A stretch of 64,000 bases of DNA from Erodium maritimum (lineage: Eukaryota > Streptophyta > Magnoliopsida > Geraniales > Geraniaceae): assembly GCA_963921825.1 (NCBI GenBank), contig OY997594.1:60683675-60747674 (forward strand). Reading direction: 5' to 3'. The position numbers and the translations under genes were made by a program. Each line of letters opens with the position of its first letter. The first letter of the stretch is position 1. The notes under the pieces were generated by a model, which worked only from the letters and a program-made list of their open reading frames with translations, did no database searches and was not told the origin of the DNA. Positions 1 through 61,502 of this stretch are shown here, in pieces.

Positions 1-830
1 CCGCGACCTAGATATGAAATATCCGCAAACTACTTCGGAAATATCCGCAAACTTCACAGTAAAAATCCGCAAACTAAATGTGAAATACGCAAAGAATCTA
101 CTCGCTAATAAAAAAAATGTTTCGATTGAACTTTCAAAATTTAATCGGGTTCGTCCATTGCGAATAATATATCGACGGTCCTAGATTAGCGCGCGAATTT
201 ACCCCAACTTTTTCTATAAAACCTCGAAATTCAAAACCAGAAAGTTCCTAAACAAGAAATAGGAAATCGAATTAAACACAGAGTTACAAAGTCTCTCGAA
301 AAATTCTCTACGATTTTCCAAGTATCAACCCTAGATCGGAGTTTTCTCGAAGAAATCTAGATCACGGACAAGGTTAAAAGACTGCGATTCTTCGAAACTT
401 GATTCCAAAACAAAATCTCATATCGCACCTGAGATCGCACCAATAGGATCGCACCGTGAGATCGTCGAAATCGCAACAGAGATCGCTGGAGATATTGATT
501 GATATCGTCGGATTTTAACACAGCAAACAATACACAAATCGAGATGTCATCTACAATATGTAAGTATAGATCTATTCAACAAAATTGATTTTAATCTACA
601 ATCGCTGCAAATTCTAATTTTCCGATAACCAAAACGTCATGATCATGGTGGTTTTTTTATCCGTAAACTAGAATGCCTAGATACTCAAAACAGTAGTTTG
701 TGTTGTACGATATTTAGCAACATATAATATTTGTTTCTTCTCAAACAATATATAAAATCTCCTCCATGACAAACTCTCAAACTAGGTGTGCAATATCCGC
801 AAACTAACTTGCTTATTTCCGCAAAGCTTA
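1..830 (+). repeat. YCGCAAAC motif array, 5' side of transposase gene
   Basis: Repeated ATATCCGCAAAC(TA) units at about 20, 41 and 63, further variants near 90, then again near 790 (atatccgcaaactaac) and 810. The middle part (120-543) is the leader and probable promoter of the transposase gene; 560-972 is its first intron, which also carries motif copies. Confidence 0.7.
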
Positions 831-3356
831 AATAATCTACTTTGCCTGTTACTATATACTACTGCCTGTGTATCAATTTGAGTATATTATAACTATCTGA
901 TTCTATGTGTGCTGTATATGCAATCAGAAATTATTACATCCTCAAACCGATCCTTATTTCGATGAATATCAGCTGCAGGGACAGACAGTGATTGTACTGC
1001 AGAATCAGATCTCCAAAACACTGTTCTGTTTTCTGCTGGAGGAACCAGGATATACTTGCCATCCTGCCAGCCTGAACGAACCCCGTTTGTAGGAAAGGAA
1101 TTCAAGACACTTAATAAGGCGATAGATTTCTACCAAAATTACGCTAGACTGTCTGGATTCACTACAAGAAGGTCTACCGAGAAGAAGGATAAAACAAACA
1201 ACATAAAGCTAAAGTACATGGTATGCTCCAAACAGGGTGAGATCCCCGAACAAAACAGTCCTCAAATTTCAAAGCCTACAAAAAAGAGGAACAGATTGCT
1301 CACAAGAATTAATTGTGAAGCAATGATAAGGTTCACATTTGTTTCGGAGGAATTGGGATACAAAGTATCAAAATTTGTTGAAGGTCATAACCACCCTATG
1401 GTTGGAGCGGAGCACAGACATGAGATGAGAGGTAACCGACACATGGAAGGCAACCATGTTGAGTATATGAACTTTTGCGAGAGATCGGGAATAGGTCCCT
1501 CAAAGGCACACAGACTAATCAGTGAAACACGCGGAGGCCCCAGCCATGTTGGAGCTTTGAAGCAAGATTTCTACAACTACCACAGGGACTTGAAAGCCTA
1601 TATTGGAGGAATTGATGTTCAGATAATCCTTAACCAGTTCCGTGACAAGAAGGTAGCCAACAACCAGTTCTACTATGAGTACGATGTTGACCTAAGCGGA
1701 AGCCTCACTAAACTATTCTGGTGTGATGAAATAGCTATCAAGAATTACGAGCTTTACGGAGATAATGTTTCCTTTGACACAACTTACAGGACTAACCAGT
1801 AAGTATAACTCGTATTCGCTAATCCATTGAAAAAGAAATTTTGAACATTATTCTTTATTAACGATTGATGTTTTGTAGGTACTCGATGCCATTTTGTCCG
1901 TTTACAGGAGTAGACAACTATGACAAATATGTGACTTTTGGGCTGGGACTGGTAACACATGAGGATATCGAGTCTTTCACTTGGATGTTTAACGCTTTTC
2001 TGAAAGCGATGAATGGGAAGCAGCCAATGTATCTGGTGACAGATCAAGACCCAGCAATGAAAGTTGCAATACCAAAAGTCATGACAGAGACTAAGCACAA
2101 ACTCTGCATGTGGCACATTATGAATAAGATTCGTCTTAAGGTCAGTCTCTATAAGAAAATCATATACTCTGTATCAACATCTTGTAATGCTTGTTTACAC
2201 AAAACGTTTTATTCTTAATATGGTTCTCATAGTTAACTACTATGCGATGAGTTTATATCTATTCTCAAACTGTTATGTCTGTTTTCTCAATCTATGAACA
2301 CAAAATATCCATAAGCCACAGTATTGTCAATTTCTATTATTTATTTCTTCGACTTTACAAATCTTACAAAAAATGTTACAGGTACCTGGAAGTGTAACAA
2401 ATGATACAGACTTTGAGAAAATGTTGGATTCCATAGTATACAACAACCTTATAGGCCCTGATGAGTTTGATGAAGAGTGGGCTAGCATCATTGAAGACTT
2501 CAATTTGCAGGACAACACTTGGCTCAATGGCATATTCGATCTGCGACACAGTTGGATCCCATCATACCATAGGGATTTCTCAATGGGGTTGTTTATGAGA
2601 ACAACATCAAGGTCTGAATCAGCCAACCGGGCCTATCAACAACTCACAGATCAGTACCTAAACCTTGTTCACTTGATCTGGCGGTGTGGAGTGGTGATAG
2701 AGAACCATAGGAGTGAGCATTTCAGTCTTATGATGCACAGCTACAATTCATATCCGGTGCTAAAGACAAACACGTGGTTTGAAGCAGATGCTTGGACCGT
2801 ATACACACACACTGTGTTTGCTGACATACAAAAGCATATAGTTTACGCTCTCAACCGCTGTAGCTTGCCAGGCATGGATGACACCGCAGATGACACCATT
2901 GTCTATAAAGTCAGGGATTCGTCGATTATTAAAGATGGTAAGGAATTCAGGGTGACTTGGACGATGAGTTCAAACAACTTTGAGTGTAATTGCAACAAGC
3001 TTCTAACAACGGGCTATATATGTTCTCACATATTTTTTGCGCTGCAAAACACAACGTTAAGGAAGATTCCTAGGACGCTGGTAAACCCGAGATGGTGTAA
3101 AGACACAAACTTGACAGCTACATTGTCTTCTAATGGTGTTGCACCTGAAGGTCCTAGTCTGAAGGACGATGAAGTTATGGATGCAGTGAAAAACAGGTTT
3201 ACTGAAATGATTGGGACAGAAGATGCAGCAATTTCAAGTATTCGAGGATTGTTGGACACTCTAAATCGATACAGAGTTAAGACGGTGGATGACATAGTGA
3301 ATGAGAATAGACTCAATAGAACAAGTTTCATAGCATCGGTGACAGGGATCAAATAA
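544..3356 (+). CDS. FAR1-domain MULE transposase (four exons)
   Basis: Exons 544-559, 973-1798, 1879-2140 and 2382-3356 give 692 aa; all junctions are GT-AG and in phase. The first coding exon is only 16 nt. The start is the ATG at 544, just before a GTAAGT donor; 1056 has only a TTG. Domains: FAR1 DNA-binding domain from about residue 46 (GKEFKTLNKAIDFYQNYA) to a Cys/His cluster ending near GHNHP; MULE transposase core with the first catalytic Asp in FDTTY (D274), the second in TDQD (D336) and the following CMWH motif (C357, H360); SWIM zinc finger CxCx9CxH (C570, C572, C582, H584). It should bind the element ends and catalyse excision and integration in the nucleus. The frame stops at TAA 3354-3356, while a recognisable FAR1-family tail continues in frame to 3572. 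A domesticated FAR1-related gene is the alternative, but the Ulp1 gene and motif arrays favour a transposon gene. Confidence 0.85.
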
Positions 3357-3572
3357 CCAGAAATAGTCACTGTCCAGCCTCCAAATATCACAAACACCAA
3401 GGGCTCTCGCTTGCGATCTGGGAGTAGAATGATCAGCAATAAAGAAAAGGCAATCAATGCTAGTAACAAGCGAAAACGGCTATGCGCCACATGCCGCACA
3501 TTGCAAGACCATGACAAAAGGACCTGCCCTCTGAATATGAATAAGAAGAAGAAGAAGAATAAGAAGAAGTAG
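3357..3572 (+). other. In-frame C-terminal extension of the transposase beyond a stop codon
   Basis: After the TAA at 3354 the same frame stays open for 71 codons to TAG at 3570-3572. It reads as the usual FAR1-family tail: a proline/valine stretch, NTKGSRLRSGSR, a basic segment NKRKRLC, a Cys-rich knuckle (C-x2-C...HDKRTCP) and a lysine-rich end. The stop therefore looks like a single nonsense change, or a stop that is read through. No splice site that would skip it was found. Confidence 0.65.
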
Positions 3573-3589
3573 AAATGATGTATATTTTC

Positions 3590-3960
3590 AACTGCGGATT
3601 TCGTTGTTTCAGTTTGCGAATATAGAGATTATGTTTTGCGAATAAATAAAGACTGTTTGATGATACATTTGCTTGAGTTTTCCGAATTAATAAATTTTAT
3701 TTATGCACATGTTTTTATTTATATGAAAATTAATATAATATATTGTACACACATAAGGCAAGACAAGGACACAAGGACCTTCCCCGCTGAGTAAAAATAG
3801 GAAGAAGAAATAGACTGATGGAGATTATCGATTGCGGATTTGGCTTTTTCTGTTTGCGGATATAGGTCAACTGTTTTGCGCATTCAATATAACAAATTGT
3901 TTGCGAATATTTCAAATTTCGTTTACTAAAATATATATAATGATTTTAGAATTTACTACT
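3590..3960 (-). repeat. YCGCAAAC motif copies in reverse orientation
   Basis: Downstream of the transposase the motif reads on the other strand (ctgcggattt, agtttgcgaatat, gttttgcgaat, tgtttgcggatat). This is the main place where the orientation flips relative to the rest of the element. Two similar short segments (about 3510-3660 and 3760-3910, both including a polyA-like lysine stretch followed by motif copies) look like a degenerate local duplication. Confidence 0.55.
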
Positions 3961-3999
3961 TTCGTTTTGCGCACAAAAGGGAAGTGAAACAGTTTGTGG

Positions 4000-4095
4000 T
4001 AGACCAATCAAATAATGACAGCGTGGAAACGTGGGGGAGAATTAATTGCTCCACTAACCCACGATGCCCTACATATTCCCCTATATATACCCAAA
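4000..4095 (+). promoter_or_regulatory. Core promoter of small gene A1
   Basis: A CCAAT-type block (agaccaatca, 4001-4010) and a TATA box (ctatatatac, 4081-4090) lie 60-155 bp before the ATG at 4155. The same arrangement recurs before A2 (4811-4821 and 4891-4900), so the pair has kept its promoters as well as its reading frames. Confidence 0.55.
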
Positions 4096-4154
4096 TAATG
4101 TATCCTTCTATACTCAACCCTCAACTCTTCGAATACCCAATTTTACTCTGAAAA

Positions 4155-4472
4155 ATGGCGTCGTCAAGCAGCAGGAAGCGTAAAAGCTATGAAGATGAAC
4201 TCGACGAACGAGAAAGGAAGCTGAAGGAGCAGAACAAGAAGGACAGAAAACAAAAGCGTCTCATCAAAAATGAGAAGTTCGTGACGAGCTTCAAGGAAAT
4301 CAAGCACAAGCTTTCTGAGATCGAGCTTGAGCTTCAAATATTGGCCTCGGATGTTGGCGATGAGCTGTGCACTGACATGAGCACCGAAGAGGTGCTTGCA
4401 AACACAGCCTTCACCAGGAAGATAACCGAAGTGATCATAGCTGTGAACAAGGCTATGAAACTGGTGGTATAA
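4155..4472 (+). CDS. Small basic/helical protein A1 of unknown function
   Basis: Single-exon ORF of 105 aa starting MASSSSRKRKSYEDE. I do not recognise the family. The N-terminus is a Ser-rich, Arg/Lys stretch that could be a nuclear localisation signal (RKRK). Residues 15-45 are highly charged (ERERKLKEQNKKDRKQKR), then an amphipathic helical part (SEIELELQILASDVGDEL) and a C-terminal hydrophobic helix ending NKAMKLVV. No signal peptide, membrane span or Cys/His motif. ATG at 4155 is preceded by a TATA box and short leader. A paralogue of exactly the same length lies 812 bp downstream, and substitutions keep the frame, so the ORF appears to be under selection. It sits in the MULE between transposase and Ulp1 genes; an accessory role in transposition or anti-silencing is inference. 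Confidence 0.6.
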   Translation: MASSSSRKRKSYEDELDERERKLKEQNKKDRKQKRLIKNEKFVTSFKEIKHKLSEIELELQILASDVGDELCTDMSTEEVLANTAFTRKITEVIIAVNKAMKLVV

Positions 4473-4599
4473 GAATAGCAAACCATATTCTTTTCATTCC
4501 TTTTGTCTGTTCTTAACCAGTTTAAAGTAATTAAAAAAATCGTTTTCCTTAAAATAGTTTATATTTCACTTTTGATTATATATAATTCCGTTATTTATG

Positions 4600-4766
4600 T
4601 TACACGCGAAACAGATTATTAGAATCAGCAAACCATGATCTCTGTATCCGCAAACCAGAATCTATGTTTTCACAAACTTCCGTCCTTAATTATAGTCGCG
4701 AAACATAATAAAAGTATCCGCAAACTACAAGATCGTATACGCAAACACCAAGTAAAGATAAAATAC
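4600..4766 (+). repeat. YCGCAAAC motif array between A1 and A2
   Basis: Units such as tatccgcaaaccagaatc, tcgcgaaacataat, tatccgcaaactacaag and tacgcaaacacc, about 25-35 bp apart, all in + orientation. Confidence 0.65.
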
Positions 4767-4966
4767 AACTTCGTTTTTGCGTACAAAAAGGAAAGTGGAC
4801 CGGTATGTGGTAGACCAATCAAATATTGACAGCGTGGAAACGTGTAGGAGAATTAATTGCTCCACTAACCTACGATGCCCTAGATATTCCCCTATATATA
4901 CCCAATACTGTATCCTTCTATACTCATCCCTCAACTCTTCCTATAACCAATTTTACTCTGAAAAAA

Positions 4967-5284
4967 ATGTCGTCCTCAAGCAGCAGGAAGCGTAGAAGTT
5001 ATGAAGATGAATTCGACGAACGCGAAAGGAAGCTAGAGGAGCAGAATAAGAAGGACAAAAAACAAAAACGTCTCATCAAGCATGAGGAGTTTTTGATGAA
5101 GTTCAAGGCAATAGGGCGTCAGCTTTCTAACATTGAGCTTGAGCTTGAAATTTTGGGTATGGAAGTAGGCGAACAGCTGTGCACTGACATGAGCTCCGAA
5201 GAAGCGCTTGCAAACTCAGCCCTGAACAGGAAGATAACCGAAGTCATCTTAGCGGTGAACAAAGCTATGAAACTAGTGGTATAA
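4967..5284 (+). CDS. Small basic/helical protein A2, paralogue of A1
   Basis: 105 aa, starting MSSSSSRKRRSYEDE and ending NKAMKLVV like A1. The ATG at 4967 is chosen because it aligns with the A1 start; the frame is open further upstream but has no conserved upstream coding sequence, only promoter. Changes relative to A1 are mostly substitutions, with the same length, basic N-terminus, charged heptad-like middle and conserved QLCTDMSSEEAL / ITEVILAVNKAMK blocks. Promoter and 3' sequence are duplicated too. Function unknown; the conserved helices suggest oligomerisation, possibly A1-A2 heteromers. Confidence 0.6.
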   Translation: MSSSSSRKRRSYEDEFDERERKLEEQNKKDKKQKRLIKHEEFLMKFKAIGRQLSNIELELEILGMEVGEQLCTDMSSEEALANSALNRKITEVILAVNKAMKLVV

Positions 5285-5409
5285 GCATAGCAAACCCTAG
5301 TGTCTTTTGTTTCCCTTTATCTGTTCTTAACCAAATCTTATTAATCAATAAAAAAATATTTTCCCTTAAATACGTTTATATTTCGCTTTCAAGTTATGTA
5401 TGATTCCAT

Positions 5410-5665
5410 GATTTGTGTTACACGCGAAACAGAATATAACTATCAGCAAACCATGATATCTGTATCCGCAAACCAGAATCTCTGTATTAGAAACTTTAAG
5501 TCAATAATAATAGGCATAATAATAGTTAAATTTACAATATTAGCAAACCAGTATATATGAATCCGCAAACTACAAGTCCGTATCCGCAAAAAACATGTTA
5601 GAAAAAAAATAACAGTATTAGCAAAACAGGATCTCTGTATCCGCAAACTACAAGGCCATATATGA
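5410..5665 (+). repeat. YCGCAAAC motif array after A2
   Basis: Copies such as cacgcgaaacag, tatccgcaaaccagaatc, tattagcaaacc, aatccgcaaactacaag, tatccgcaaaaaac and tatccgcaaactac. Bases 5666-5860 beyond it hold AT-rich sequence in which I see nothing else. Confidence 0.65.
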
Positions 5666-6170
5666 CCATTATACCCATCATCGTCTTCCTCCACATTTTC
5701 TTTATCCTCCTTTTTCTCATCATCGTCATTGTCACTGATGATAATAGGGCAATCCTCTTTGTATTATGGTGACATGACATAATTAAAAAAAAAGGTTTAT
5801 GATGACATGATTTGTACGGTTAAAAAATTGATTTAAACTAAACCAAACGGCGGTGAAAAGACATAACAACGCATTAAATGAGATAAGATCTTGGTGCATT
5901 GAAGGAGGATTTTAGTAATGATGTACTGTAACCGTGGTAACTTAACCGTCAGATTTTGAAATCATATCATCTGATTTTGGGGAACGATTGGCACGTGTCC
6001 TCTACAAGATCTTATCGTATCACATTCCGATAGACGTAAATCAGCATTTAGTTTGAGAATTATGAGTTATTGATTGCGAAAATAATATATATGTTACCAG
6101 TAAACTAATCTATATATAATTAGAACTCTACTTTTAACGAAATAACGATAATGCCACCGCAAGATTTCAA

Positions 6171-6180
6171 CTATAAATAC
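6171..6180 (+). promoter_or_regulatory. TATA box of small gene B1
   Basis: ctataaatac followed by a C-rich stretch (cccccacccctatat) about 90 bp before the ATG at 6271; the same box and C-rich stretch are found before B2 at about 7344. The upstream 300 bp (from about 5866 and about 7012) are also duplicated, including CAGCATTTAGTTTGAGAATT. Confidence 0.55.
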
Positions 6181-6270
6181 CCCCACCCCTATATTTCTTA
6201 ACCCTAGAACTCTTCTTCAATTTCAAAACCTCTTCTCTAATAACTTCAAACCACCAGATATGCAAAAGAG

Positions 6271-6618
6271 ATGGCCTCCAACAGGAAACGCACCAGATCT
6301 CAAGGTAACGTTTGCACCGAAGAAGCTGTGGAACGTACCATTGAGGAACGTTCTAAGAAGATGCGTGAGATGGAGCAAGCGGCTATGGATACGGCAATGG
6401 AGATTCGCAAAGTAAAGTTGGCACTAATCCAATGTCACTTTTTTCTGATGGAGGAGAAGGTGGAAAACCTTATCCATGATCTGGAAGTGCTTGACATGAG
6501 GAACGGCAATGCAAAGCTTAACGAAGATAGAGACAAGATGATGACGGCACTGAAACAGATTCAGGATTTCTTCAAAACCATGGCCATAGTACAAGACGAA
6601 GGCACATCCGGCCCATGA
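6271..6618 (+). CDS. Small basic/helical protein B1 of unknown function
   Basis: Single-exon ORF of 115 aa starting MASNRKRTRSQGN. It has a basic N-terminus (RKRTR) that could be a nuclear signal, a long helical middle rich in Glu, Met, Lys and Ala (residues about 18-60), a helix around LIHDLEVLDM, and a C-terminal helix ending IQDFFKTM before the tail EGTSGP. No Cys/His metal site, signal peptide or membrane span. The architecture resembles A1/A2 (basic N-terminus then helices, about 105-115 aa), so the A and B pairs may be distant relatives, although I see no convincing residue alignment. A duplicated copy (B2) lies 1172 bp downstream. Function unknown. Confidence 0.6.
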   Translation: MASNRKRTRSQGNVCTEEAVERTIEERSKKMREMEQAAMDTAMEIRKVKLALIQCHFFLMEEKVENLIHDLEVLDMRNGNAKLNEDRDKMMTALKQIQDFFKTMAIVQDEGTSGP

Positions 6619-6739
6619 AGGATGTAATCATATTTTCACTTTTATCATGTCAATCGTCTTTTGATGTTTTTGTTTTGGGTTTTGAACACTTGGTTTCTCA
6701 ATGAAATGATGATTAGTATCTACCTATTCTACTGTTAAA

Positions 6740-7005
6740 GTAATCTATGTAAATTCGCAAAAGACATATTATGTATTCTCGAAGACGTAGTTTTAATTGC
6801 GTAAATGAGAACATGATTGCTCGCAAACGAAAATTGCTGAAATGATAACATGTTTGCACACAACTAGAGCATATCAGCAAAATACAGACAATAATTACAT
6901 TCGCGAAACATAATAACAGTATCCGCAAACAACAAGTCCGTATCCGCAGACAATGATTTCTGCATCCGCAAACTACAAATCCTTATCCGCAAAACTAAGT
7001 GCGAT
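6740..7005 (+). repeat. YCGCAAAC motif array between B1 and B2
   Basis: Copies such as attcgcaaaagac, ctcgcaaacg, catatcagcaaaatac, attcgcgaaacat, tatccgcaaacaacaag, tatccgcagac, atccgcaaactac and tatccgcaaaac, all in + orientation. Confidence 0.65.
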
Positions 7006-7442
7006 AAGACTGACCAACACATTAAATGCGATAAGATCTTCTTGCATTCGATTGGGATTTTACTAATGATGAAATATAACCGTGAAAATTTAACCGTCTG
7101 ATTTTCAAATCATATCGATTACATGATACGTCTAATTTTCGTAAAGATTGACACGTGTCCTCTACAATATCTTACAAAATCACATACCGGTACACGTAAA
7201 TTAGCATTTAGTTTGAGAATTATGAGATACGGATTGCGAAAATAAGGTATATGTTTTGCGGAATTATTATTAGTTAACTAATCTGTCTATAATTAGAACT
7301 CTACTTTAAACATAATAACGATAATGCCACCGCAAGAATTCAACTATAAATACCCCCACCCCTATATCACTGAACCCTAAAACTCTCTTTCAATTTAAAA
7401 TTCTCTTCTCAAATAACTTGAAACCACCAGTCTGCAAAAGCG

Positions 7443-10400
7443 ATGGCCTCAAACAGGAAACGCACCAGAGGGGAAGGAAACGTTTGCAACGCAGAAGCTA
7501 TGGAACGTACCAGAGAGGAAGCCGCTTTGGAGTCTAAAATACAGTTACGCAAAATAAGGTTGGCACTATGCCAGATCCACTTTTTGCTGATGCATGAGAA
7601 GGTGGAAAGCCTTGCCAATGAACTGCAAGTGCTTGACATGAGCAACTCGACTGAAAAGCACAAGGAAGATAGGGACATGATGATGGCGACACTGAAAAAG
7701 ATTCAGGACTTCTTCAAAACTGTCACGCCCCAATTTCAGCGAACCGAAACTAGGGACGCGAACGTTTTAAAAGTTACAAAACTGAAACCTGTTTTCGATA
7801 AATCACCTAAAAAGTCAGTTTAGTTCCACAAAAGAATAATATTTACATCTCAAAATAAAAGTCCCACACTTGGACAAAACGAGATACACGTCTCTAGACT
7901 CAAACACCCAGCAACCCGCTTCAAGCTCTTCAAGCTTCAGAAGCTCACCTAGTCCAGACTACGAACGGTACCTGTAGGAAAAGCAGCTAGGGGTGAGCGT
8001 TCGCTCACCACCACATATAACATACTGACTATGGCATAATTAGTAGACAAAGCCGATGACACCAACAACGACTCAAGACACCCACACGACCGGTCTTTTC
8101 CTCAACTGACTCGACACACGGACACGTTACGTAGACCCCACACTACGATCGACGACCTCCTCCAAGACACGACTGACCACACAATACCAAACAAGATCAC
8201 AAAGGATCGCAAACCAGCTGCTCAGTAACCAATCTCTGTATCCTGCCCTTTCCGATCCCAGTCGGTACAGGCGGTCGACCTGTCGCGCAACTTCCCCCGA
8301 TCCCAGTCGGGGGGCTAACCCACAACCTCTCCGCTTCACCCGATCCCAGTCGGGTGGTTAGCCACACCCGCGCGTCCTTCCCCCGATCCCAGTCGGGGAG
8401 CTAGCCCACAACCCCTCCGCTTCTCCCGATCCCAGTTGGGAGGCTAGCTACACCACACAACCTCCACCAGTAACCAGTAACCAATCACAAACACAAACAA
8501 GTTCAAACAGACAGTAACGACACCGGTGACAACTCCACAGGCACTCAAGGCCAACAAAACACCGACAACCAAACACAGGTTCAACAACCCTACGGGCCCT
8601 CATGGCCACCCAAGACACCAACGATAAAGTAAGGGTTCACACCCCACGGGCACTCACGGCCACTCAAAATACCGAAACGACAACACGGGCTCTCATGGCC
8701 ACCCAAACTCAACAACAAACAACACGCGACAACCTCCGGGCATGGTCATATGCCTCCAGTGAAACAGTTAACGCTAAGTTCTCTGCTCCTACGACACTAC
8801 TAAGTGTCACATGCACTTTCAGTAATCGCTACGTTCCCGTATCATGCATTTCTAATATTCGATAACCTAAATAACCCACGACACCCCGGTGTCACATGCA
8901 ATTCTACAGTTAACTTTCCCTAGTCAGGGCCGAGATCCGGCTACTTTTCCCTACCTCGAAAGCAACTCCAGAAGCGCTCCACTAAACCCGAGATGAATCG
9001 CAGTTACTCGCCGAGCCTCCCTTTGCCTCGGTCCGCAGCACGATCTAAAGGAACACAGATTTAACTCACTTTAAACTAGTACGAACCGGTCGAAAATAAA
9101 TAACTCAAAGCCCAAAATAAAAACGGTTCCGCCGTTAAGTTAACGGCTACGATTTGTCCATTTTAAACTTGACTGTTGTCGTTTACACTCGAGCGGGATA
9201 AAAGTCGGGTTACGACGGATCGGGTTCGAGCACCCGCGCACCGAACCCAGGTTTGATCTAAACCCAGTTTAAACCCCTTTTTAACTTAAAACCGTCGTTG
9301 AACTCCCTTGCCTTAATTAATTCCGCCTTTGATTTTAAAATAAAACGGTTTCCTTCCGTTCGTTTCCAAACTCGATATTTTGGTCCAGAACCCTTATAAA
9401 GTCGATTTGATTTCGCTTCCCCCCTTTTTGATTTAACTTAACTCGAGTCTAACCTTAATAAACGACTTTCGTTTTTAAAACCCGTTTAACCTAAGCCGAT
9501 ATAGTTTTATCGATAATTAAATTACGTCCAAACGGTACGGATTTAATCTTTAAACTAACACTGATTTCGTTTTACAAACAGTTTGAACCCAACCCAAGCG
9601 TACTTAAATCTATTCAAACATAAGAATACTTATATCGATAACTTATATTTTGTCGATCTTTACAAAATCAGATTTACACGATTACAACAATCCTTTAAAC
9701 AACCAGATCTACGTTTTTCTATTCCGTTCCCTTCCATTTCGGGAGCTCCGTTCCATCCCGACCAGATTTGAACGAACTCGAGAAAAGGGAAAGCGAAGAA
9801 GAAGAACGGTTCTGCTTGGTCCGGCCGACCACCGGCGCCGGTCGGCCGAGCTTCCACGGGCCGAGAACTAACCGTGAGGAAACGGTGGCGGCGGTGGACG
9901 GCGGTGCACGGCGGCGTCGGCGCGGGTCCGGACGACTCGTCCCGTTCCGGATCTGGCGAGCTCGCCGGCGACGGAGCTCGGTTCGTGTCTCGGACGGGCA
10001 GATCGTTTACGGGAAGAGGGCGGCGACGCGTTAGGGCTCGGACGGGACGGTGGTGGACGGCCTGTTCTTCGGCGGGGACGGGGACGACGGCGTGGGGAGC
10101 TCGGTGGCGGACGGTGGCCGGAGCTGGTGAGGAAGACGAAGGAGAAGGATGAGGCAGCGAGCTCGGGGACGGGGTTGTGTGGCTGACCGGAGCGGTGACG
10201 GCGTCGGGACGGAGGAGAAGAGGACGGGACGGTGCACGGAGACGGAGGAGCTGGGCGTGGTCGGAGCTGGGCGTGGTCGGACGGAGATGGAAGGGAGACG
10301 GCGTGGTGGCTGGAGGAGAGGGAGGTCGGGGTTCGGCTGAGACGTGGCGGCGTGTGGTGGCGATGGGAGAGCGGCCGGAGCCGGTGGGAGGTCGCCGGAG

Positions 10401-10710
10401 GTGGATGGAGAGGATCGGTTTCGAAGGAGAAGGGAGAGGTGTGGGGGTCGGCTGCGCAGGAGAAGAAGAAGTGAGGGTTATGGGTTGAAACCCTAAAACA
10501 AAGGGTTTTATACCCTGGGCTTGGGCCGGGTCTACTGGTTTGGGCCGGGTCTGGCCCGCCCGGTCCAGCCCTTTAATATATATTTTTTTTGCACTTGTTT
10601 TAAAAACTTACCCTAAGGTTTTCGTTTGCAAATTAATACCTTAACGAAACGAAGCGGGTTTTACAAAAACAATTGAGGTAGACATGGAGCAGGGCACATC
10701 CGACCCATAA
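7443..10710 (+). pseudogene. Small protein B2, paralogue of B1, split by a solo LTR
   Basis: The B2 frame runs from ATG 7443 to the TSD base 7720, then meets a solo LTR; the frame resumes exactly after the second TSD copy at 10671 and ends at TAA 10708-10710. The distal piece encodes a tail EQGTSDP that matches EGTSGP of B1, and the following 3' sequence is also like that of B1. Before the insertion the gene would have been about 105 aa. As it stands the ORF runs 381 nt to 7823, ending in LTR-derived residues after FFKT, so a truncated protein with a foreign tail is possible. The frame itself shows no other damage, so the insertion may be fairly recent. Confidence 0.85.
7721..10665 (-). mobile_element. 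Solo LTR of a Ty3/gypsy-type element (2945 bp), copy 1
   Basis: Begins TGTCACGCCCC and ends ...GTTTTACA on +, i.e. a TG...CA LTR lying on -. It is flanked by perfect 5-bp duplications AAAAC (7716-7720 and 10666-10670). No internal retrotransposon sequence is present, so it is a solo LTR. It shares with the LTR of the element at 58883 the 3' end (TTGGGGCGTGACA), a GGTGAGCG..CGCTCACC hairpin (7992-8009), the conserved block GGCCGAGATCCGGCTACTTT (about 8930) and degenerate tandem repeats. The GC-rich half (about 9770-10500) yields long overlapping ORFs in several frames that are not genes. Confidence 0.9.
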
Positions 10711-11261
10711 AGGATGTAGTTATATTTTCCCAATTATCATGTCAATCGTCTTTTTATGTTTCTGTGTTTTGTGATGAAAACTTAGTTTCTCAGTGAATGT
10801 ATGACTAGTATCTGCTTATCAATATTAAAGTCACATACATTTAACTCGCAAACGATATTGCATAATCTGAAACAAGGAACCCCACTTTCTCAAACCAAGG
10901 ATTGACAATTCGCAAAACAGAAAAACAGTTCCGCAAACTAGACACTGTATATTCGCAAAACAAAAAACACATAACCTCAAAAAAAAGAGGAACCCAGGTT
11001 TCGCAAACCAAGGATAGCCTCTTCGCAAAACAGAAAAACAATACCCGCAAACTAGACACTATACATTCGCAAAAACAGAAAACACATAACCTCAACCAAC
11101 AACTTATTTATCCTACAATACAACATATTCAGAAACAAAAGATCTTATAAATTTTGAAAATAGTACACACATTATTCTCAAACAAAATATATCATAAATT
11201 CTCAAACAAAAAAAATTGTCGTTTCTGAAAACAAACACCAGTAATCAAAAAGAGTAATTCA
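10711..11261 (+). repeat. 3' sequence of B2 and YCGCAAAC motif array
   Basis: 10711-10820 is the duplicated 3' sequence of the B genes. From about 10840 to 11230 motif copies alternate between tcgcaaacc/attcgcaaaac and ttccgcaaactagac types, with two near-identical blocks (about 10890-10980 and 10990-11090). Confidence 0.65.
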
Positions 11262-14200
11262 CTAAGCTTTATGACGTTCGCATGGTAATAAGGCTTTATA
11301 CTTGACACTAAATTTGAATGTGGCCTTCTTCTTTTTGAAATAATCTTTGATATTCTCCTCAATTCCTAGCCACAGGTTGTTCTTCTCAAATGTGATCAAC
11401 TTAAAGAGGAATCTTTTCCTCAATAACTCGATTTGTGCAGCCTACAAAATCAAAATTTAAAAATCAAATATATACTCATTGCTATATACTAACAAAGAAA
11501 TAATTGTTGGTTTAACTTACATCATTAACGTTCAATTCTCCTGCCCAATTCTCATTGCCAAGATACGATTCCATGTGCCACATAGCATACACCCCACAAT
11601 CCATATGATTGTCGTTAGATTCCCATGGTACATGTAACCGATCAATCTTACCGTTGAAAATTTTCTGAGCTAGAGCTTTATCAGTTTTTGATATGAACTT
11701 GCAAATTTTAGACCTCTACGCAAATCAAAAACACCAAAGAAAAATAAATAAAAACAGAAATGAATAGATAGACAGTAATCAAACACATACTCAATGAGAA
11801 AAGAATACATACCAATGTATAGTGAATTTTTTCATAACGAACATCATCATCAACCATTCCTTTCACATTGTCAATAATAATTGAATTTCCATTCTTCATA
11901 TCAATGCATAACAGTGTGAAGTGATTGCTCTTAAAAGCAACTATGAAAACCTGTAGAAAATATATAAAATGCATCAGCATATCAGCAAAACACATATTCA
12001 CTATCAGCAAACTACATTTTCATTATCAGCAACACATAGAAACTGTTTCTCAAACCAGGGTGCGCATATCAGCAAAACATGTATTCATTTTCCGCAAACT
12101 TGATAGAAAATATTCGCAAACAAGAAAATCTATACCCTCAAACCAGATATTGCGTGACTCAAACAGGTAAACGTTATTTCTCAAGCAAGGGTGCGTATAG
12201 ACGCAAAACATACAAACCTTACCCACAACCAACATATTGAATATTCTAAAACCAACCATGTATTATACTTACCAAGTCCAACTTCTTCCATGAAAAAGAA
12301 GGGAACTCCTTAGTTTCAAATATGAAAATTTCGTCAAAAGCTACATCTTTTTTATGTGCTGAAAGCGTAGCCTACAAAATAAAAATATTAATAACAAAAA
12401 CATATTAAAATAATTCAAACTATAAACGTAATCAACAAAAAAAATTGCACAAACTATCCTTACACTAAGAGTAGCTAAAAAGAAGAACCGGTTAGGTGAT
12501 GAATCACTCTTGATAGTTTCGAGATGATTCAGATAATGACACCACCCATTAATGGTTTCCAGTTCAATCCATGCATCCTTTTTGAAAGAAATAAAGCCCC
12601 CATTGGTGATATAACTTTCAGAGCACTGAAACATAAAAGCCCTGCATTCACAGAGAGAAAAAGTCTATTCACTGTATTTGCAAAAATAAAATATGAAAAC
12701 AAAATAAGGGGAAAAACATATTTTACTTACCAATCCTCGGTTTTGCTTTTATTCAGCACCCAATCTGCAACACAATCCTCAACCTCCAGAATATCGTACC
12801 AATAATCTGTTTGACGATCAACGTACGGAGAACACAGAAATTTAGACGGTGCAATCAAACGAGGTAAAGGTTGTTTGTCTGGGGTTTCCCTTAATAAAGA
12901 TGCCTTGCTACATCCAATTGACATAAAACTATTGCCACTTGCAGCAGGTTTCTTAACAACAAGGGGATTTTTCTTAACACCACCTTGAGCTTTTTTTGCT
13001 GCAACAGTACGGGGTACTTTCTTCTCGGGGACAGCAGCGGGGCCTTTCTTACCGGGTGCACGAGCGCGACCTCTCTTCTTCGGTGGATCAATAATTGAGC
13101 CAGGCTCCACATGACCAACACCATCAGTCGACTTCTTAGGAGGATGCATGAGCCATTTTTTATCAGGAAAAGGTATGCCAGCAGGGCGTTGGACTATGGA
13201 TTCACGAAATCTTGCCATTGCAAGTTCAGGATTCTCGTCAACTGTCTCAGATACCTCTTTCCCACCAATAGAACGATTGATATTTTGGTCAACCCGTGCG
13301 GTAACAATTGGCGGGGGTTGAGTCTTGCAAGCTTGATTAACAGGTGGATCATTGTTGACATTTTTTTCAACAACAATTATATTGAGTGGCTCGGGTTGCT
13401 CTTGAAGTGTCTGAAAAAATTCATTGACAGACGGAGACCCGTTGACATTTCCTTGACTGCATTCTATAATAAGTGGGTCTGATTCCACTACAAGAGCCCA
13501 ACAATCATCTTTGTTAACAACATCGGGAGCTTCACATTCCGTGATTGGATTATCAACAACCATGTCACAAGCTTGCTTCCCAATACCATAAGCAACAGAA
13601 ATAGCGTCAAACTCATCGCCAACACTGTTATTCTTTTCTGGCTCAGTTTGTTCTACAACAATATTATCCACAGGGCCTGCATCATTACTTGCGAACAATT
13701 TCTGTACCACATTATCGCATTCATGGCTTGACAATGTAGTGGATCCAACAGGGCATGGTGAAAGAACATTGGCAGGCGATTTTTGGGATGGTGAAAGAAG
13801 TCTGAACGATGGTGGAGTAACGGCACGAGCATGTGGCTTCTCTCCTCCTTTGTACCCTTCCCCAACGCGTGTTGCTGCTTCAATCAATTTCTCAATGGTC
13901 TCAATAACCCCGGGTAGATTAAACCATGAGTCTTGTGACAGCAACACACTTTGTGTGTCAGGCATGGCATCTTCGGGATTTTTTTTCCCGGTCAAACCAT
14001 CAAACAGGGTTGACATTGTCTTGAAACACTCAGTATTGGGGTCAGCGATGTTCCCTTCAACCAACAACTGATGCCATTCCAAAAAACCTTCTGCAACCTT
14101 ATTCCCTGTTATTCGAAACATTTCTGCAATCCTCTGAATACGATAAAAAGAAGCATGTTAATGTGATTAAATGCAAACAAATAAAACACAGGGTATCCAT

Positions 14201-16939
14201 CAACTACGAAACACATCTTCAAACCAAAATGTGCATATTTGCACACAATAAACCTAGGCACAAATCACATGCAACAAATACTCAAAACTGTTTCGCAAAA
14301 CAGAGTGCGCATACTCGCAAAACAAAGAATCACTATCCGCAAACTAGGTAAAGAATACACGCAAAACATAAATTCACAATCCGCAAACAGGGTAAGCATA
14401 TACGCAAAACATATATTCACAATCCGCAGACTAGGTAAAGCATATTAGCAAAAAGGTCAATCAATAACAGAGAATGCATCAACTAAAACACACATCTGCA
14501 GACCAAAATGAGAATATTTTAAAACTGTTCCTACCAGAGTACGCACTATCGCAAAACATACAATCACTATCCGCAAACTATTAAAACCATATTAGCGAAG
14601 CAAAAATTCACTATCCGCAAACTAGGTAAAGTATATTCGCAAAACATATATGCACTATCCGCAAAACACAATATCACTAAACGCAGAACATATATTCACT
14701 ATTCGCAGAACATATATTCACTGTTCGCATAACATAAATTCACTATCCGCAAACCAGGTAAAGCATATTCGCAGAACATATGTTCACTATCCGCAAAAAA
14801 AACAAGTCAATCAATAAACCTAACTGTACATTTGAAAAACATAATTCCCCCACAAAAAAATTAATTAAATAATAGAATACCTCTGCATAACACCTTTCAC
14901 TATGAAAGGGGGGGGGGGGGGGGGGGTATTCAGGGCCGGCGGATCTCCACCATTTCTATCACCACTTTCATTATTCCTATTTACGTTAGGTGGTGGATGC
15001 TGAGCAACATTATTTTCCTCGCTAACACGTGGAGGACCCTCCCTCCGTATGTGACCCATTCCAAATGACTCACACTGTAATTCATCACCGACTCTTCTAT
15101 TCACCAATGCAGTATTCCATCCGATCAAAGACGGCCACACCCTAAGAACCTCACACGTGCTGACTTCAACACGATCAAGATAAAACAACTGCATCATTGA
15201 AAGGAAAAGACATGTCACATGAATATAACATAACAGTTTATTAGATATAAAATACAACACGTTAAAATGATAAATAAACTTACCAACAAGAAAGTGATTG
15301 GTCCAGAAAAATTCTTTGAACCATCGGGTTTTAACCAGGCTTGTTTTGTATCCACAAGTCTCTTGACTAAGAACTTGCACCAATTAAAATCTTGTATGTG
15401 AGATACATCAACGATAGAACGGAAGCATGACTGATTCACATAACCATCATTCCCGGAATCGATCATGCAAGTGACAAACAACATCATGAAGTTTCTTTTG
15501 AAATCATCTCCCCCTTCAATTTGCGTCTTCATCTCATCAACCAACTGCTTACTGGTGATAAGACGCTTGAACTCGCCTTTGTCTTTTGTATCGAACTGCT
15601 GCTGCCACAATTTAAGTTCATCAGTGCACAGGGTGGCCCACTTATCGACTATGACGTCGCGCACACCATTTGGAATGCCCAAAGTTTCATGCACTTCATT
15701 CTCTGTGATACGCAATTTGGCATCTGGCAATTCCATTGATGAGCTAAGATGGTTATACTTAGACACCAGGTAATATCCAATCTTGCTTGGAATGATCTTC
15801 ACAGCCAAATGAAGAATGTGCCCAAACCCAATTTCGCGCACTGCTTCTTGTTGGCGTTTATTCAAACTCTCCACCAACTCAACCAATCTCTTTGGAGATG
15901 ACCTGGTCTTCAAAATAGCATCCACGCCAACCTTATCAGATAACGGGACAACTCTATCAGACTCACAACCCTTGGTGCGCTTAACATTCTTCTTCTCAAC
16001 AGCTAATTCTTCACTTCTCTTCTTTCCAGCTATAGCAGGTCGGACAGCTACATCGAGACATTCACGAACCTCAGCTACCTTCTTCTTCTTAATTGAAAGT
16101 CTTCGTTTATTTTTATTCTTAATAGACTTCTGCTCCTTCAACATATTAGCAAGAGTCGTATTTCCTTCACCAACATCAGCCTCTGTGGATGGCCTATCCA
16201 TTAAAAGAAGAGGTACCACTGTATCCGGAGTTTTATCTATAATTCGCAAATAGGGGTTAGCATTTCAGCAAAACAGACAATATACAAAAACATTGCATAT
16301 TCACGAGAAAGAAAAACAGTGTCCGCAAACAAGATACTATATATTCGCAAAACATAAATTCACTATCCGCAACTACATAAATCTAATTCGCAAAACATAT
16401 ATTCACTATCCGCAAACAAGGTAAAACATATTATCAAAACAAGTCAAACAATAACAGGGCATGCATCAACTACAAAACACATCTGCAATCCAAAATGTGC
16501 ATATTTGCATACAATAAACATACGCACATATCAAATGCAGGATTATTCAAAACTGTTTCTCAAACCAGAGTGCGCACGCTCGCAAAACATAAATTCTTTA
16601 TCCGCAAATTGGGTAAAGAATAATCGCAAAACATGAATTCATTATTCGCAAAACAGAAAAACAAAGTCCGCAAAACAAGATACTCGCAACACAGAAACCC
16701 CAAAAACTCAACCAACAACTTGGTTTTCCTCAAAAGTAGATCAAAATCATCTCATAGTTGAATAATTTCATGGTATTTCATTATTCACTTGAATATGGTG
16801 TACACTAAAAGCAAAACACAAGCACTCTGAAAACATAGCACCTATAAAAATCCGCAAACTACAAACACTATATTCTCAAATTACCTGATTCGCTGTCCCT
16901 GTTGCAGAATGTTGTAGATTCAGCAACCTTGTTCTTCAT
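11262..16939 (-). CDS. MULE-borne protein with C-terminal Ulp1-like (C48) cysteine protease
   Basis: Nine exons on -: 16885-16939, 15284-16236, 14881-15188, 12731-14133, 12464-12641, 12273-12371, 11813-11950, 11521-11715, 11262-11441; about 1170 aa. All junctions have GT-AG and fit in phase except that exon 3 is one base off, within a run of 19 G (14908-14926). ATG at 16939 begins MKNKVAES and joins in phase with DKTPDTVV. The N-terminal half carries the region typical of plant transposon Ulp1 genes (SPKRLVELVESL, IGFGHILHLAVKIIP, ETLGIPNG, DFNWCKFLVKRL); the middle is low-complexity, Pro/Lys-rich with an AT-hook-like KKRGRARAP. The protease has the catalytic His in NHFTLL, Asp in IIIDN and Cys in DCGVYAMW. 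Ulp1 enzymes cleave SUMO or similar modifiers; here the target is unknown. Long introns are filled with the element motif. Confidence 0.8.
11951..12272. repeat. YCGCAAAC motif array in a Ulp1-gene intron
   Basis: Intron between exons 6 and 7 holds variants such as tatcagcaaaac, tttccgcaaacttg and attcgcaaacaag, whereas the short intron 12372-12463 has none. Confidence 0.6.
14134..14880. repeat. Dense alternating motif array in Ulp1-gene intron 3
   Basis: From about 14290 to 14800 two forms alternate: CACTATCCGCAAACTAGGTA and CATATTCGCAAAACATATAT (and close variants), roughly every 25-30 bp, about twenty copies in 500 bp by eye. This is the clearest block of the motif. All are in + orientation, i.e. 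antisense to the gene. Confidence 0.8.
16237..16884. repeat. Motif array in Ulp1-gene intron 1
   Basis: Same alternating TATCCGCAAAC / ATTCGCAAAACAT units as in intron 3, including a segment (about 16440-16640) that is clearly similar to 14170-14340 (GGGCATGCATCAACTACAAA-type sequence followed by ATTTGCATACAATAAAC), so blocks of array have been duplicated between introns. Confidence 0.7.
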
Positions 16940-17376
16940 TCTCTACAAACGGATTACTATAATCAAAAAGCTAGATAACCAAACGAACAAGATTGAATCA
17001 AAACCCTAAAAACACCAAAAATTGTAACTCACCACAATGAACTATTGAAATTCACTTCGAAAACGCGCAGAAGACGAATATCAAGGCAATGGAAGCTCAA
17101 AAAATCAGATTCCGAAATGTTCGTTTCGCTAAAAACTCGATTCTGCAAGTGTTTTGGTGAGCACGAAACGTTTCTGCGCGAACGGGTAGATAAAAGTACG
17201 TTTATACCCCCGAACCATAGCAAAACAGTTGAAATGAATCCCACGCGCGACTTATTTACGACGCGTGCCACTGATGACGCGTTCAAATCTGCGCCATCGC
17301 GAAATTCACATCGGACGGCCATTACGCAGTGCGCAGGTTCGCACCAAATCAGGGGGTTCGCACCTGATTGCTCTCC
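16940..17376. other. Right terminal region of the MULE (5' side of Ulp1 gene)
   Basis: Gene-free, CpG-rich terminal sequence with no canonical motif copies, ending ACCTGATTGCTCTCC at 17376 against (TA)n. It contains two tandem near-copies of the terminus (ggttcgcaccaaatcagggg / ggttcgcacctgattg, 17336-17370). It should hold the Ulp1-gene promoter; no obvious TATA box was identified. Confidence 0.55.
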
Positions 17377-17394
17377 TATATATATATATATATA

Positions 17395-17656
17395 GGATAA
17401 CAATCAGGTACAAACTTGTATCTTTCTTCAGAACGTATAACTATCAATCTAGGCCCTTGGATCGTAGAATTAATGACCCAGATTTAATGCATATCTTTTA
17501 ATATCTTTTTAATTAATGCATATCTTGTAATTGATTTCGTAATCAATCACCACCCCCCCCCCCCCGGAATTTCGGTGGCCATCCGATCTGGATAATCAAT
17601 GACCTAGATTAGTTCTACGTTTTGACCCGAAATAGGGTTTGTACTTGATTGTTCCC
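17395..17656 (+). mobile_element. 262-bp MITE, copy 1, in (TA)n
   Basis: Starts GGATAACAATCAGGTACAAA and ends TTTGTACTTGATTGTTCCC, so the two ends are imperfect inverted repeats. Both flanks are (TA)n, which hides any target duplication. It contains a run of 13 C (17553-17565). A second copy lies inverted at 19103-19360. Confidence 0.75.
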
Positions 17657-17670
17657 ATATATATATATAT

Positions 17671-19054
17671 GAGAGCAATCAGGTGCGAACCATGAGTTAT
17701 GGTGTGAACATGCGAACTCAACCAGATTGCGCCATTTGTCGCGCTCAGAAAATGCCCCCCCTTTTTTTATAATCAAGTTTATTAATTCGATTTTTCCAGT
17801 TTCGTTTCAACTCCGATTTCATTTTTTCTTGCGCCAATATTCTTATTTTTTCAAGAGCTTTCTAACAAGTAGTGGATTGCATATATTTTGATGTGTTTTT
17901 GAATAAGTGTGTGGATGTGTGAATATGAGTGCGAAAAGTGTGATGTGTTTTGCAAATTTAGTGTATATGGTTTGCGGATTTAGTGTATATGGTTTGCGTA
18001 TTTAGTGTATATGGTTTGCGTATTTAGTGTATATGGTTTGCGAATTTAGTTTGTTTTGCAAATTTAGTGTATATGGGTTGCGGATTTAGTGTATATGGTT
18101 TGCGAATTTAGTGTATATGGTTTGCGAATTTAGTGTATTGCATACTTATGTACATATGATATATATGGTTCAACTCCATGTTTGAATATAAGCTTACGAA
18201 TATTAATGTCATTTAAACTTTCCTACCATATACAGTAAGTTGCTTATTCAAGATTTATCATTTAAACTTTCCTACCATATACAGTAAGTTGCATACTAAA
18301 TAATATATATGGTTCAACTCCATGTTTGAATATAATCTTACAAATATTAATGCCATTTAAACTTTCCTATCATATACAGTAATTTGCTTATTCAAGATTT
18401 ATCATCCTCAAATTAGATAATATTCTAATAAACCAATAAGATTAACTCCAATTCCAGGTTTTAAAATTATATGCAAGTTATAACTCCAACCTTTATCATA
18501 AAGTTATTTGAAGTCTTAGTAGTATACATATACTTCCTCCATCCTACAATATTCTACAATGAGTGTCTCATTTATTTGACAAAGATTTAGTTTTAGTAAA
18601 GTGTGAAAATTACACTAAATTCGCAAACCATATACACTAAATCCGCAAACCATATACACTAAATTTGCAAAACGCACTAAATTCGCAAACCATATACACT
18701 AAATCCGCAAACCATATACACTAAATCTGCAAACCATATACACTAAATCCGCAAACCATATACACTAAATTTGCAAAACACATCACACTTTTTCGCACTC
18801 ATATTCACACATCCACACACGTATTCAAAAACACATCAAAATATATGCAATCACTACTTGTTAGAAAGCTCTTGAAAAAATAAGAATATTGGCGCAAGAA
18901 AAAATGAAATCGGAGTTGAAACGAAACGGGAAAAATCGAATTAATAAACTTGATTATAAAAAAAGGGGGGGCATTTTCTGAGCGCGGCAAATGGCGCAAT
19001 CTGGTTGAGTTCACACGTTCATACCATAACTCATGGTTCGCACCTGATTGCTCT

Positions 19055-19056
<2 letters not shown>
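17671..19056. mobile_element. Foldback element with ~450-bp inverted repeats, non-autonomous relative of the MULE
   Basis: Left arm 17671 to about 18137 and right arm about 18607-19056 are near-perfect inverted copies. The ends read GAGAGCAATCAGGTGCGAAC, identical to the MULE right terminus at 17376 apart from the first base. Each arm's inner part is a tandem array of a 22-bp unit (TTTGCGRATTTAGTGTATAT plus GG; 17948-18141 and 18610-18780) with the same GCGRA/YCGC core as the MULE motif. Flanks are (TA)n. The centre (18142-18606) has no ORF and contains a degenerate tandem duplication (about 18160-18260 and 18300-18405, with ATGGTTCAACTCCATGTTTG). Confidence 0.85.
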
Positions 19057-19102
<46 letters not shown>

Positions 19103-19105
<3 letters not shown>

Positions 19106-19360
19106 GAACAATCAAGTACAAACCCTATTTCGGGTCAGAACGTAGAATTAATCTGGGCCATTGATTACTCAGATCGAATGGCCACCGAAATTCAGGGAGG
19201 GGTGGTGATTGATTACGAAATCAATTACAAGATATGCATTAATTAAAAAGATATTAAAAGATATGCATTAAATCTGGTCCATTAATTCTACGATCCAAGG
19301 GCCCAGATTGATAGTTCTACGTTCTAACGAAAGATACAAGTTTGTACCTGATTGTTATCC
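19103..19360 (-). mobile_element. MITE copy 2, inverted relative to copy 1
   Basis: Reverse-complement homologue of 17395-17656, starting GGGGAACAATCAAGTACAAA and ending TTTGTACCTGATTGTTATCC, again between (TA)n tracts. With copy 1 it brackets the foldback element symmetrically, so 17395-19360 is one ~2-kb near-palindrome. Confidence 0.75.
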
Positions 19361-19549
19361 TATATATATATATATATATATTGACTAAAAGGTGCGATTT
19401 CATTAAACTTAGAATTCAACTACAAACGAGGGCATTAAGAAAAAACACTCATTGGCCACTAAGAACAACCATGGAACACAAATGTTTGTTATTATTTTAA
19501 CATTATTACCGTTATAAACGACATTGGAAATATGACGAAACCGACTATG
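19361..19549. other. Short unassigned spacer
   Basis: (TA)n followed by about 170 bp of unrecognised sequence up to the TSD of the next solo LTR. Nothing else seen. Confidence 0.4.
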
Positions 19550-61489: not shown

Positions 61490-61502
61490 TTGGTATCAGA
61501 GC
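61490..61502 (+). other. Primer-binding site (initiator tRNA-Met type)
   Basis: TTGGTATCAGAGC two bases after the LTR end, complementary to the 3' end of plant initiator tRNA-Met, as in most plant Ty3/gypsy elements. Confidence 0.85.

Follow-up and report, generated by a model that had tools for sequence, protein, structure and literature searches.

The maize element MuDR carries a transposase gene and a convergent accessory gene (mudrA/mudrB). Both genes are named in PMC4486113. Mutator-like elements (MULEs) often hold captured genes, and the capture of Ulp1 is described as frequent (PMC2528002). The same source describes KI-MULE (KAONASHI) of Arabidopsis, in which a ULP gene lies in reverse orientation to the MULE transposase, and Jittery-like families of grapevine, some of which have their ULP gene placed after the transposase, in either orientation; ULP-bearing MULEs of the Jittery-like and MuDR-like kinds are described from grapevine and melon. 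In VANDAL elements, VANC proteins bind short motifs that stand in one orientation, densely, in introns and other non-coding DNA of the element that encodes them (PMC5735166), and the same action is reported for KIU, the VANCs that carry Ulp1 (review PMC13317346). MuTAnT of Medicago and SaTar/AgS-MULE of guayule target TA microsatellites (PMC4486113, PMC5907723). Here we describe a stretch of 64,000 nucleotides from Erodium maritimum (contig OY997594.1; the window, G000:C7:60683675-60747674), of which bases 1-17376 belong to what is almost certainly one multi-gene mobile element, a MULE that unites such traits.

Positions are those of the window, and bases before it have negative coordinates (0 is the base preceding base 1). 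The genome scanned amounts to 763 Mb; of its 40 contigs, nine are large. The parts of the window copy, including two long terminal repeat (LTR) inserts upstream of the window, are as follows.

1..17376, + strand: right-hand part of the element, about 60% of the whole copy; the left end lies beyond the window
-11579 to -8708: LTR insert 1, TG...CA in its own orientation, 5-bp duplication GTCGA
-3342 to -428: LTR insert 2, TG...CA in its own orientation, 5-bp duplication CCGAT
544..3356, + strand: FAR1/MULE transposase gene, 4 exons, 692 amino acids
4155..4472, + strand: small gene A1, 105 amino acids, family A
4967..5284, + strand: small gene A2, 105 amino acids, family A, tandem duplicate of A1
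6271..6618, + strand: small gene B1, 115 amino acids, family B
7443..7720, + strand: small gene B2 of family B, interrupted by an LTR insert and resuming past 10665; intact in a second complete copy (copy B)
7721..10665, + strand: LTR insert 3, TG...CA, 5-bp duplication AAAAC on both sides; breaks B2
10846..16858, + strand: densest part of the motif arrays, 32 of 56 matches, all on the + strand, many 22 bp apart
11262..16201, - strand: Ulp1-like gene, 8 exons, 1138 amino acids, open when spliced; convergent, with motif arrays in its introns
17326..17376, - strand: right terminus, reading inward GGAGAGCAATCAGGTGCGAAC, with (TA)n outside

The evidence that carries the conclusion of a single unit is recurrence across the genome. 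The scored gene matches are lower bounds: the best 124 of 811 candidates for transposase exon 4, the best 129 of 810 for exon 1 of the Ulp1-like gene, and the best 150 of 573, of 699 and of 452 for the small genes A1, B1 and S1. For the termini, the best 40 of 397 left ends and the best 40 of 256 right ends were scored. A family A gene lies downstream on the same strand, within 10 kb, at 106 of the 124 scored transposase matches, and the other three arrangements gave 0, 0 and 0. B1 lies downstream at 101 (otherwise 0, 0, 0) and S1 upstream at 94 (otherwise 0, 0, 2). The Ulp1-like gene lies downstream on the opposite strand, within 40 kb, at 78 (otherwise 0, 0, 1), an arrangement that random placement produced at 0.46 matches on average and at no more than 2 over 200 trials. 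All four partners (S1, A, B1, Ulp1-like) are present at 51 of the 124. Since this fixed gene order recurs around the scored transposase matches, the genes are best regarded as one mobile unit. The original prediction, made from the window alone, had likewise taken the whole for one multi-gene element, and a far terminus in (TA)n and a second complete copy now stand beside the fixed order in its favor.

Clustering at 25 kb groups the matches into at least 192 loci. A1, transposase and Ulp1-like gene occur together in 64 of them, A1 with the transposase in 42, A1 with the Ulp1-like gene in 27, the transposase with the Ulp1-like gene in 6, and A1 by itself in 10. In every cluster with all three genes the order is transposase, A1, Ulp1-like, and loci with the same gene order are numerous and spread over all nine large contigs. 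What weighs against a single unit is that the Ulp1-like gene stands alone in 32 of the 192 clusters and the transposase in 11. The separate occurrence of the two genes, which had been named in advance as evidence to the contrary, is thereby limited to a minority of loci, and these may be fragments. At G000:C3:16219419 and 16221460 (-), two transposase matches lie 2 kb apart on one strand, possibly as a tandem or nested pair.

The ends are organized in the same manner. A transposase match lies downstream of 34 of the 40 scored left ends, S1 lies within 3 kb of 37, and none of the three genes is found at 2; the Ulp1-like gene lies inward of 32 of the 40 scored right ends. Among the scored ends there are 22 left-right pairs, 7.5 to 41 kb in length, of which 16 enclose matches to all three genes and 8 measure 18.0 to 19.5 kb. 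The short gene-less pairs look like deletion derivatives, and the long pairs look like copies with inserts. The presence of LTR inserts and of TA-array elements inside and beside the element might suggest a chance neighborhood of unrelated transposons in a repeat-rich region. The paired ends refute that view, as does the recurrence of one gene order at many loci on each of the nine large contigs; we consider it next to impossible.

The whole window copy spans -11643 (G000:C7:60672031) to 17376, or 29,020 bp with its three LTR inserts; when these are subtracted, about 20.3 kb are left. Copy B (G000:C7:14493946-14512801, -), free of later insertions and with both ends in (TA)n, measures 18,856 bp. 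The left end at -11643 reads GGGACGCTATCAGGTGCGAAC and follows directly behind a long TA run. The terminus GGAGAGCAATCAGGTGCGAA has 3 matches in the window at up to 3 mismatches (0.01 expected). Left and right ends are imperfect partners, agreeing at 16 of the first 20 bases, 23 of 30, and then 27 of 50 ungapped; BLAST of the window-copy ends aligned 87 bp at 80%, partly TA repeat. An inverse terminus had been expected upstream within about 10 kb. The imperfect partner is there, in (TA)n, at 11.6 kb, just past that limit because two LTR inserts of 2.9 kb each intervene. The contiguous element of more than 17 kb that had been proposed needs a similar correction: 1-17376 does belong to it, but 7721-10665 is an LTR insert and the start lies 11.6 kb before the window.

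Each of the five left ends read directly (window copy, copy B, L049, L050, copy C) and each of the four right ends (window copy, copy B, L052, L053) has (TA)n outside, these ends having been picked as best matches and not as a random sample. In such surroundings a target site duplication of 8-11 bp, as is usual in the Mutator superfamily, is indistinguishable from the repeat. Very probably the element inserts in TA microsatellites.

The three LTR inserts belong to one GC-rich family. Copy B is without all three: at the places of inserts 1 and 3 it has the exact empty site, with the 5-bp sequence standing once, and around that of insert 2 it differs at several bases. The GC-rich stretch at 7.7-10.7 kb was considered as a part of the element and rejected, because it is bounded by TG...CA and the AAAAC duplication and is missing from copy B; it is consistent with a later insertion, a solo LTR. 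Further members of the family lie at 19549 to ~21.6 kb (+) and at 61491 to ~58.9 kb (-).

The element is Mutator-like by the criterion of the MULE domain (PF10551). The transposase that had been proposed is borne out: GT-AG splicing of exons 544-559, 973-1798, 1879-2140 and 2382-3356 (+) gives an open frame of 692 amino acids, in which MULE (5.7e-27) and FAR1 (3.1e-16) each exceed the Pfam cut-off. A SWIM-like CxC...CxH at residue 570 was assigned by eye, Pfam SWIM being unmatched. The proposed protease stands as to its frame, 1138 amino acids and open, and as to the expected catalytic order of His978, Asp995 and Cys1054 (by eye; identical in copy B). Its match to Pfam Peptidase_C48 is sub-threshold (E 0.0091 for the whole protein, 0.0051 for the C-terminal part). 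Like KI-MULE, the element thus joins a transposase to a Ulp1-like gene in reverse orientation (78 of 124 scored matches), with the reservation that Peptidase_C48 stays below threshold. Unlike KI-MULE, which is described as being without terminal inverted repeats, it has short imperfect inverted ends. The available part of the KI-MULE description (PMC2528002) does not mention TA microsatellite targeting, small genes of families A and B, or motif arrays. The differences from MuDR lie in size, in the number and kind of accessory genes, and in TA targeting.

Two duplicated pairs of small open reading frames (ORFs) had been seen at 4155-4472/4967-5284 and 6271-6618/7443-7720, and they are indeed tandem duplicates (84% over 735 bp; 77% over 749 bp). 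The four belong to a total of seven, in two families: S1, A1 and A2 form family A, and S2, S3, B1 and B2 form family B. The order in copy B is S1, an acidic frame on the other strand, S2, S3, transposase, A1, A2, B1, B2, Ulp1-like. S1 has 104 and S2 88 amino acids in copy B; S3 has one stop codon there, and in the window copy LTR insert 2 splits it. The window copy has two copies of S2, the first without an ATG-initiated frame above 70 amino acids. S1 groups with A1 and A2 (z scores 6.5 and 6.7, 0 of 300 shuffles) and S2 and S3 with B1 and B2 (z 6.5 to 11.1, 0 of 300). Joining A and B in a single family was unsupported, the top score (z 2.7) being equalled by 7 of 300 shuffles. The proteins are of small size, have many charged residues and begin with a basic stretch. 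The claim that they are new is consistent with the searches: none has a Pfam relative above cut-off, sequence searches of the PDB gave nothing useful, and the plant genomes covered amount to this one.

Some observations pertain to the surroundings of these genes. The stretches upstream of the A pair (3975-4094 and 4786-4905) are 92% alike, and the coding parts 84%; those upstream of the B pair (6094-6257 and 7267-7430) are 88% alike, and the coding parts 79%. This greater likeness upstream suggests that the small-gene promoters are conserved. The acidic frame between S1 and S2 (L009:2029-2652, -) is rich in Asp and Glu, has 204 amino acids in copy B, and shows a ratio of nonsynonymous to synonymous substitutions (dN/dS) of 0.54 between window copy and copy B; at its position an older copy (copy C) has a GAAGATGAA-type repeat.

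Purifying selection acts on A1: its ratio of nonsynonymous to synonymous polymorphism (pN/pS), taken over 29 of 30 loci, is 0.336 (bootstrap 0.238-0.438), against 0.883 and 0.750 in shifted frames, and the frame is open in 27 of the 29. Selection on the transposase can be demonstrated likewise: exon 4 at 30 loci gives 0.403 (0.327-0.510), against 0.547 and 0.808 in shifted frames, with the frame open in 20 of 30. These intervals are rough, because the loci are the best 30 of 124 matches, a non-random sample, and the copies share ancestry. Between window copy and copy B, dN/dS is 0.18 for A1, 0.29 for A2, 0.29 for B1 and 0.15 for S1, on 7 to 28 differences each; the B2 part gives 0.70 on few changes. 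For S2, constraint is undemonstrated because dN/dS among its paralogues is about 1.0.

These values bear on the possibility that the Ulp1-like and small genes are functionless host fragments captured in the Pack-MULE style. Gene capture by MULEs is common, and that of Ulp1 frequent (PMC2528002). Against this stand the open frames, the pN/pS of A1 over 29 copies, the low dN/dS of A1, A2, B1 and S1, and the presence of the same genes in older copies; we regard capture of this kind as very unlikely. No host source gene for the Ulp1-like or small genes was found among the matches listed; by origin these genes may still come from the host. In the older copy C (L056/L057), the transposase pieces are 76-91% identical, the left end is TA-flanked, and the order is S1, S2, S3, transposase; A, B and the Ulp1-like gene were unmatched within the 20 kb examined. 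Copy D (L058/L059) has A at 79-84%, B at 66% and the Ulp1-like gene at 61-80%, with the exon bearing the catalytic Cys unmatched.

The non-coding parts of the element are densely supplied with a short motif. An unbiased k-mer scan, in which copy B was compared with 35.2 kb of window sequence, gave TCCGCAAA as the top 8-mer (41 to 0), followed by ATCCGCAA (32 to 0) and CCGCAAAC (28 to 0); the shared motif proposed earlier was thus recovered without prior choice. In the form [C/T]CGCAAA it has 56 matches in 1-17376: 53 in 7,670 nt of non-coding DNA (2.7 expected), 2 in 6,759 nt of coding DNA (1.4 expected) and 1 in the LTR insert. The neighboring array has 9, and the 44.6 kb of 19379-64000 have 3. 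In copy B the + strand holds 61 of 69 motifs, and successive motifs on one strand are most often 22 bp apart, close to two turns of the helix. From these arrays we infer that the element has a regulatory system of its own.

The pattern is of the VANDAL type. As in VANDAL21/Hiun and VANDAL6 (PMC5735166, PMC10398659), a multi-gene MULE has a dense tandem motif in one orientation in non-coding parts and introns, not enriched in coding parts. The VANDAL motifs are described as YAGTATTAY and AGTTGTCC/AC and so differ from the one here, and three genes are given for VANDAL. The CpG observed/expected ratio in the non-coding parts is 1.19 (1.00 with the motif core masked), compared to 0.61 in coding parts and 0.64 in window 22801-58000. 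Such a value is as expected if the DNA escapes methylation or is conserved.

Gene-less elements occur in the same TA repeats. At 17377-19378, two copies of a miniature inverted-repeat transposable element (MITE M) of about 260 bp surround a foldback (F1) of 1,387 bp, with TA repeats between.

17395..17655, + strand: MITE M, ~260 bp, ends GGATAACAATCAGGTACAAAC / GTTTGTACTTGATTGTTCCC, motif-free; a separate element in the same TA array
17670..19056, + strand: foldback F1, gene-less, terminus shared with the large element; both arms hold a motif array (9 motifs in total)
19101..19361, - strand: second copy of MITE M, opposite in orientation to the first

A terminus shared with a foldback had been noted. 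F1 shares it closely, and is the only member of the array to do so; the region also holds the two MITE M copies. Reading 17377-19378 as a single foldback was rejected, as its outer arms are a MITE found elsewhere without the large element, in either orientation. That MITE M always lies beyond the right end was rejected as an effect of selecting best matches, since L052 is without it there. The best 40 matches to the F1 arm are at 96% or above, some being the two arms of one element. A TA array on the left, at -17821 to -16866 (L010:1178-2133), has the same plan as the right-hand one, MITE M, F2, MITE M; F2 (-17554 to -17182) is 373 bp long and gene-less, with 10 motifs and similar ends.

The gene-less relatives retain the motif, with 9 in the 1,387 bp of F1 and 10 in the 373 bp of F2, and MITE M has 0 in four copies. 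The spacer between motif cores varies among the element, F1 and F2, and the core is constant, which suggests that the core is the conserved part; the repeat units of F1 are nearly identical, so this comparison rests on differences between elements. In having (TA)n ends, gene-less relatives that share the termini and several elements per TA repeat, the element resembles MuTAnT and SaTar (PMC4486113, PMC5907723). AutoMuTAnT is given as 4,873 bp with a single transposase gene (PMC4486113), whereas the element here is about 19 kb and multi-gene; AgS-MULE1 is given as 5.3 kb with 400-bp inverted repeats (PMC5907723), whereas the ends here are short and imperfect. The available parts of both descriptions do not mention Ulp1-like or small genes (PMC4486113, PMC5907723).

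The reading that we favor, and to which we give an even chance by analogy with the VANDAL elements, is that of an autonomous-type, TA-inserting MULE of ~19 kb whose Ulp1-like protein, most likely, binds the arrays and counters silencing in the manner of VANC. The transposase would excise and insert the element as well as the gene-less relatives that bear its terminus. The [C/T]CGCAAAC arrays of the non-coding parts would be bound, in the VANC/KIU manner, by a protein that the element itself encodes, most likely the Ulp1-like one, and this binding would keep DNA methylation off the element and its foldback relatives or remove it from them. The small proteins may act as partners of the array-binding protein or as co-factors in transcription or targeting. 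The Ulp1-like protein is the first candidate for the binder, given that such action is reported for VANCs that carry Ulp1 (PMC13317346). That the arrays are bound by some protein of the element is probable; that anti-silencing is their main task, again judged from analogy, could equally be right or wrong.

Several points weigh against this reading. The Peptidase_C48 scores of 16.3-17.1 bits fall short of the cut-off of 20.7. The VANC domains, DUF1985/DUF287, were unmatched in the Ulp1-like protein at Pfam E values up to 10 for the N-terminal part and up to 1 for the whole, so that its likeness to VANC is one of anatomy only. The high CpG could stem from youth or from selection on other sites. 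Motif density is about 1.1 and 1.35 per kb in two older copies, compared to 3.7-3.8. The TG form of the motif is elevated in the older copies, as by decay, and the CT form stands at 1.6 and 2.2 per kb in them, 1.5 in young copies and 0.6 in the background. Whether older copies had moved to CTCAAAC was considered; no co-evolution is claimed, the CT form being raised in young copies too.

Finally, the termini themselves carry TGCGAA, at 15, 33, 41 and at 15, 34. As this resembles the motif core, the transposase could be the binder: the arrays would then be FAR1/MULE transposase binding sites, subterminal and internal repeats that aid assembly of the transposition machinery, and the accessory genes, Ulp1-like and small alike, would be passengers or regulators with different tasks. 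FAR1 is a DNA-binding domain, the TGCGAA repeats lie within 50 bp of both ends, and F1 shares the terminus and holds the motif inside its arms. Most motifs, however, lie far from the ends, in introns and intergenic DNA over 19 kb, where a transposase does not need them, and the terminal TGCGAAC differs in context from CGCAAAC and is without the 22-bp steps. We consider this alternative doubtful. It is unlikely, too, that the small A and B proteins bind the arrays in place of the Ulp1-like protein, as a new system of anti-silencing or target choice. Their basic N-terminus and the 22-bp spacing, as for an oligomer, would suit such a role; both duplicated families are retained at most copies, A1 is as constrained as the transposase, and no relative of A or B was found in Pfam or PDB above cut-off. 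A DNA-binding domain was, on the other hand, unrecognised in A or B.

A further reading we offer quite tentatively. A lineage of TA-targeting Mutator elements may have built a multi-protein system of self-protection or targeting without precedent, with two families of small helical-looking proteins and a degenerate Ulp1-like protein acting on CGCAAAC arrays phased at 22 bp, and with gene-less foldbacks surviving by copying the termini and arrays only. Taken separately, the traits are already known: a FAR1/Jittery-type transposase with ULP (PMC2528002), TA targeting (PMC4486113, PMC5907723) and the motif arrays of VANDAL (PMC5735166). Their combination, or these small genes, is unreported in the open literature searched, which is weak evidence of absence, most subscription papers and all plant sequence databases being outside that scope. 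Elsewhere in the window, frames resembling pieces of retrotransposon pol and gag (52301-54829, -; 62409-63956, +) and an exon of a host membrane transporter (36912-37610, +) were recognized by eye.

If the arrays are an anti-silencing platform, the element would be a second case of VANC-type counter-defence, this one in a TA-targeting MULE and through a motif of unrelated sequence, and its gene-less relatives would have been selected for arrays as well as for ends. The small-gene families are candidate proteins for anti-silencing or for the choice of TA microsatellites, the latter a problem that the SaTar paper lists as unsolved (PMC5907723). The element is, moreover, a candidate source of transposase for the population of MITEs and foldbacks in the TA arrays.

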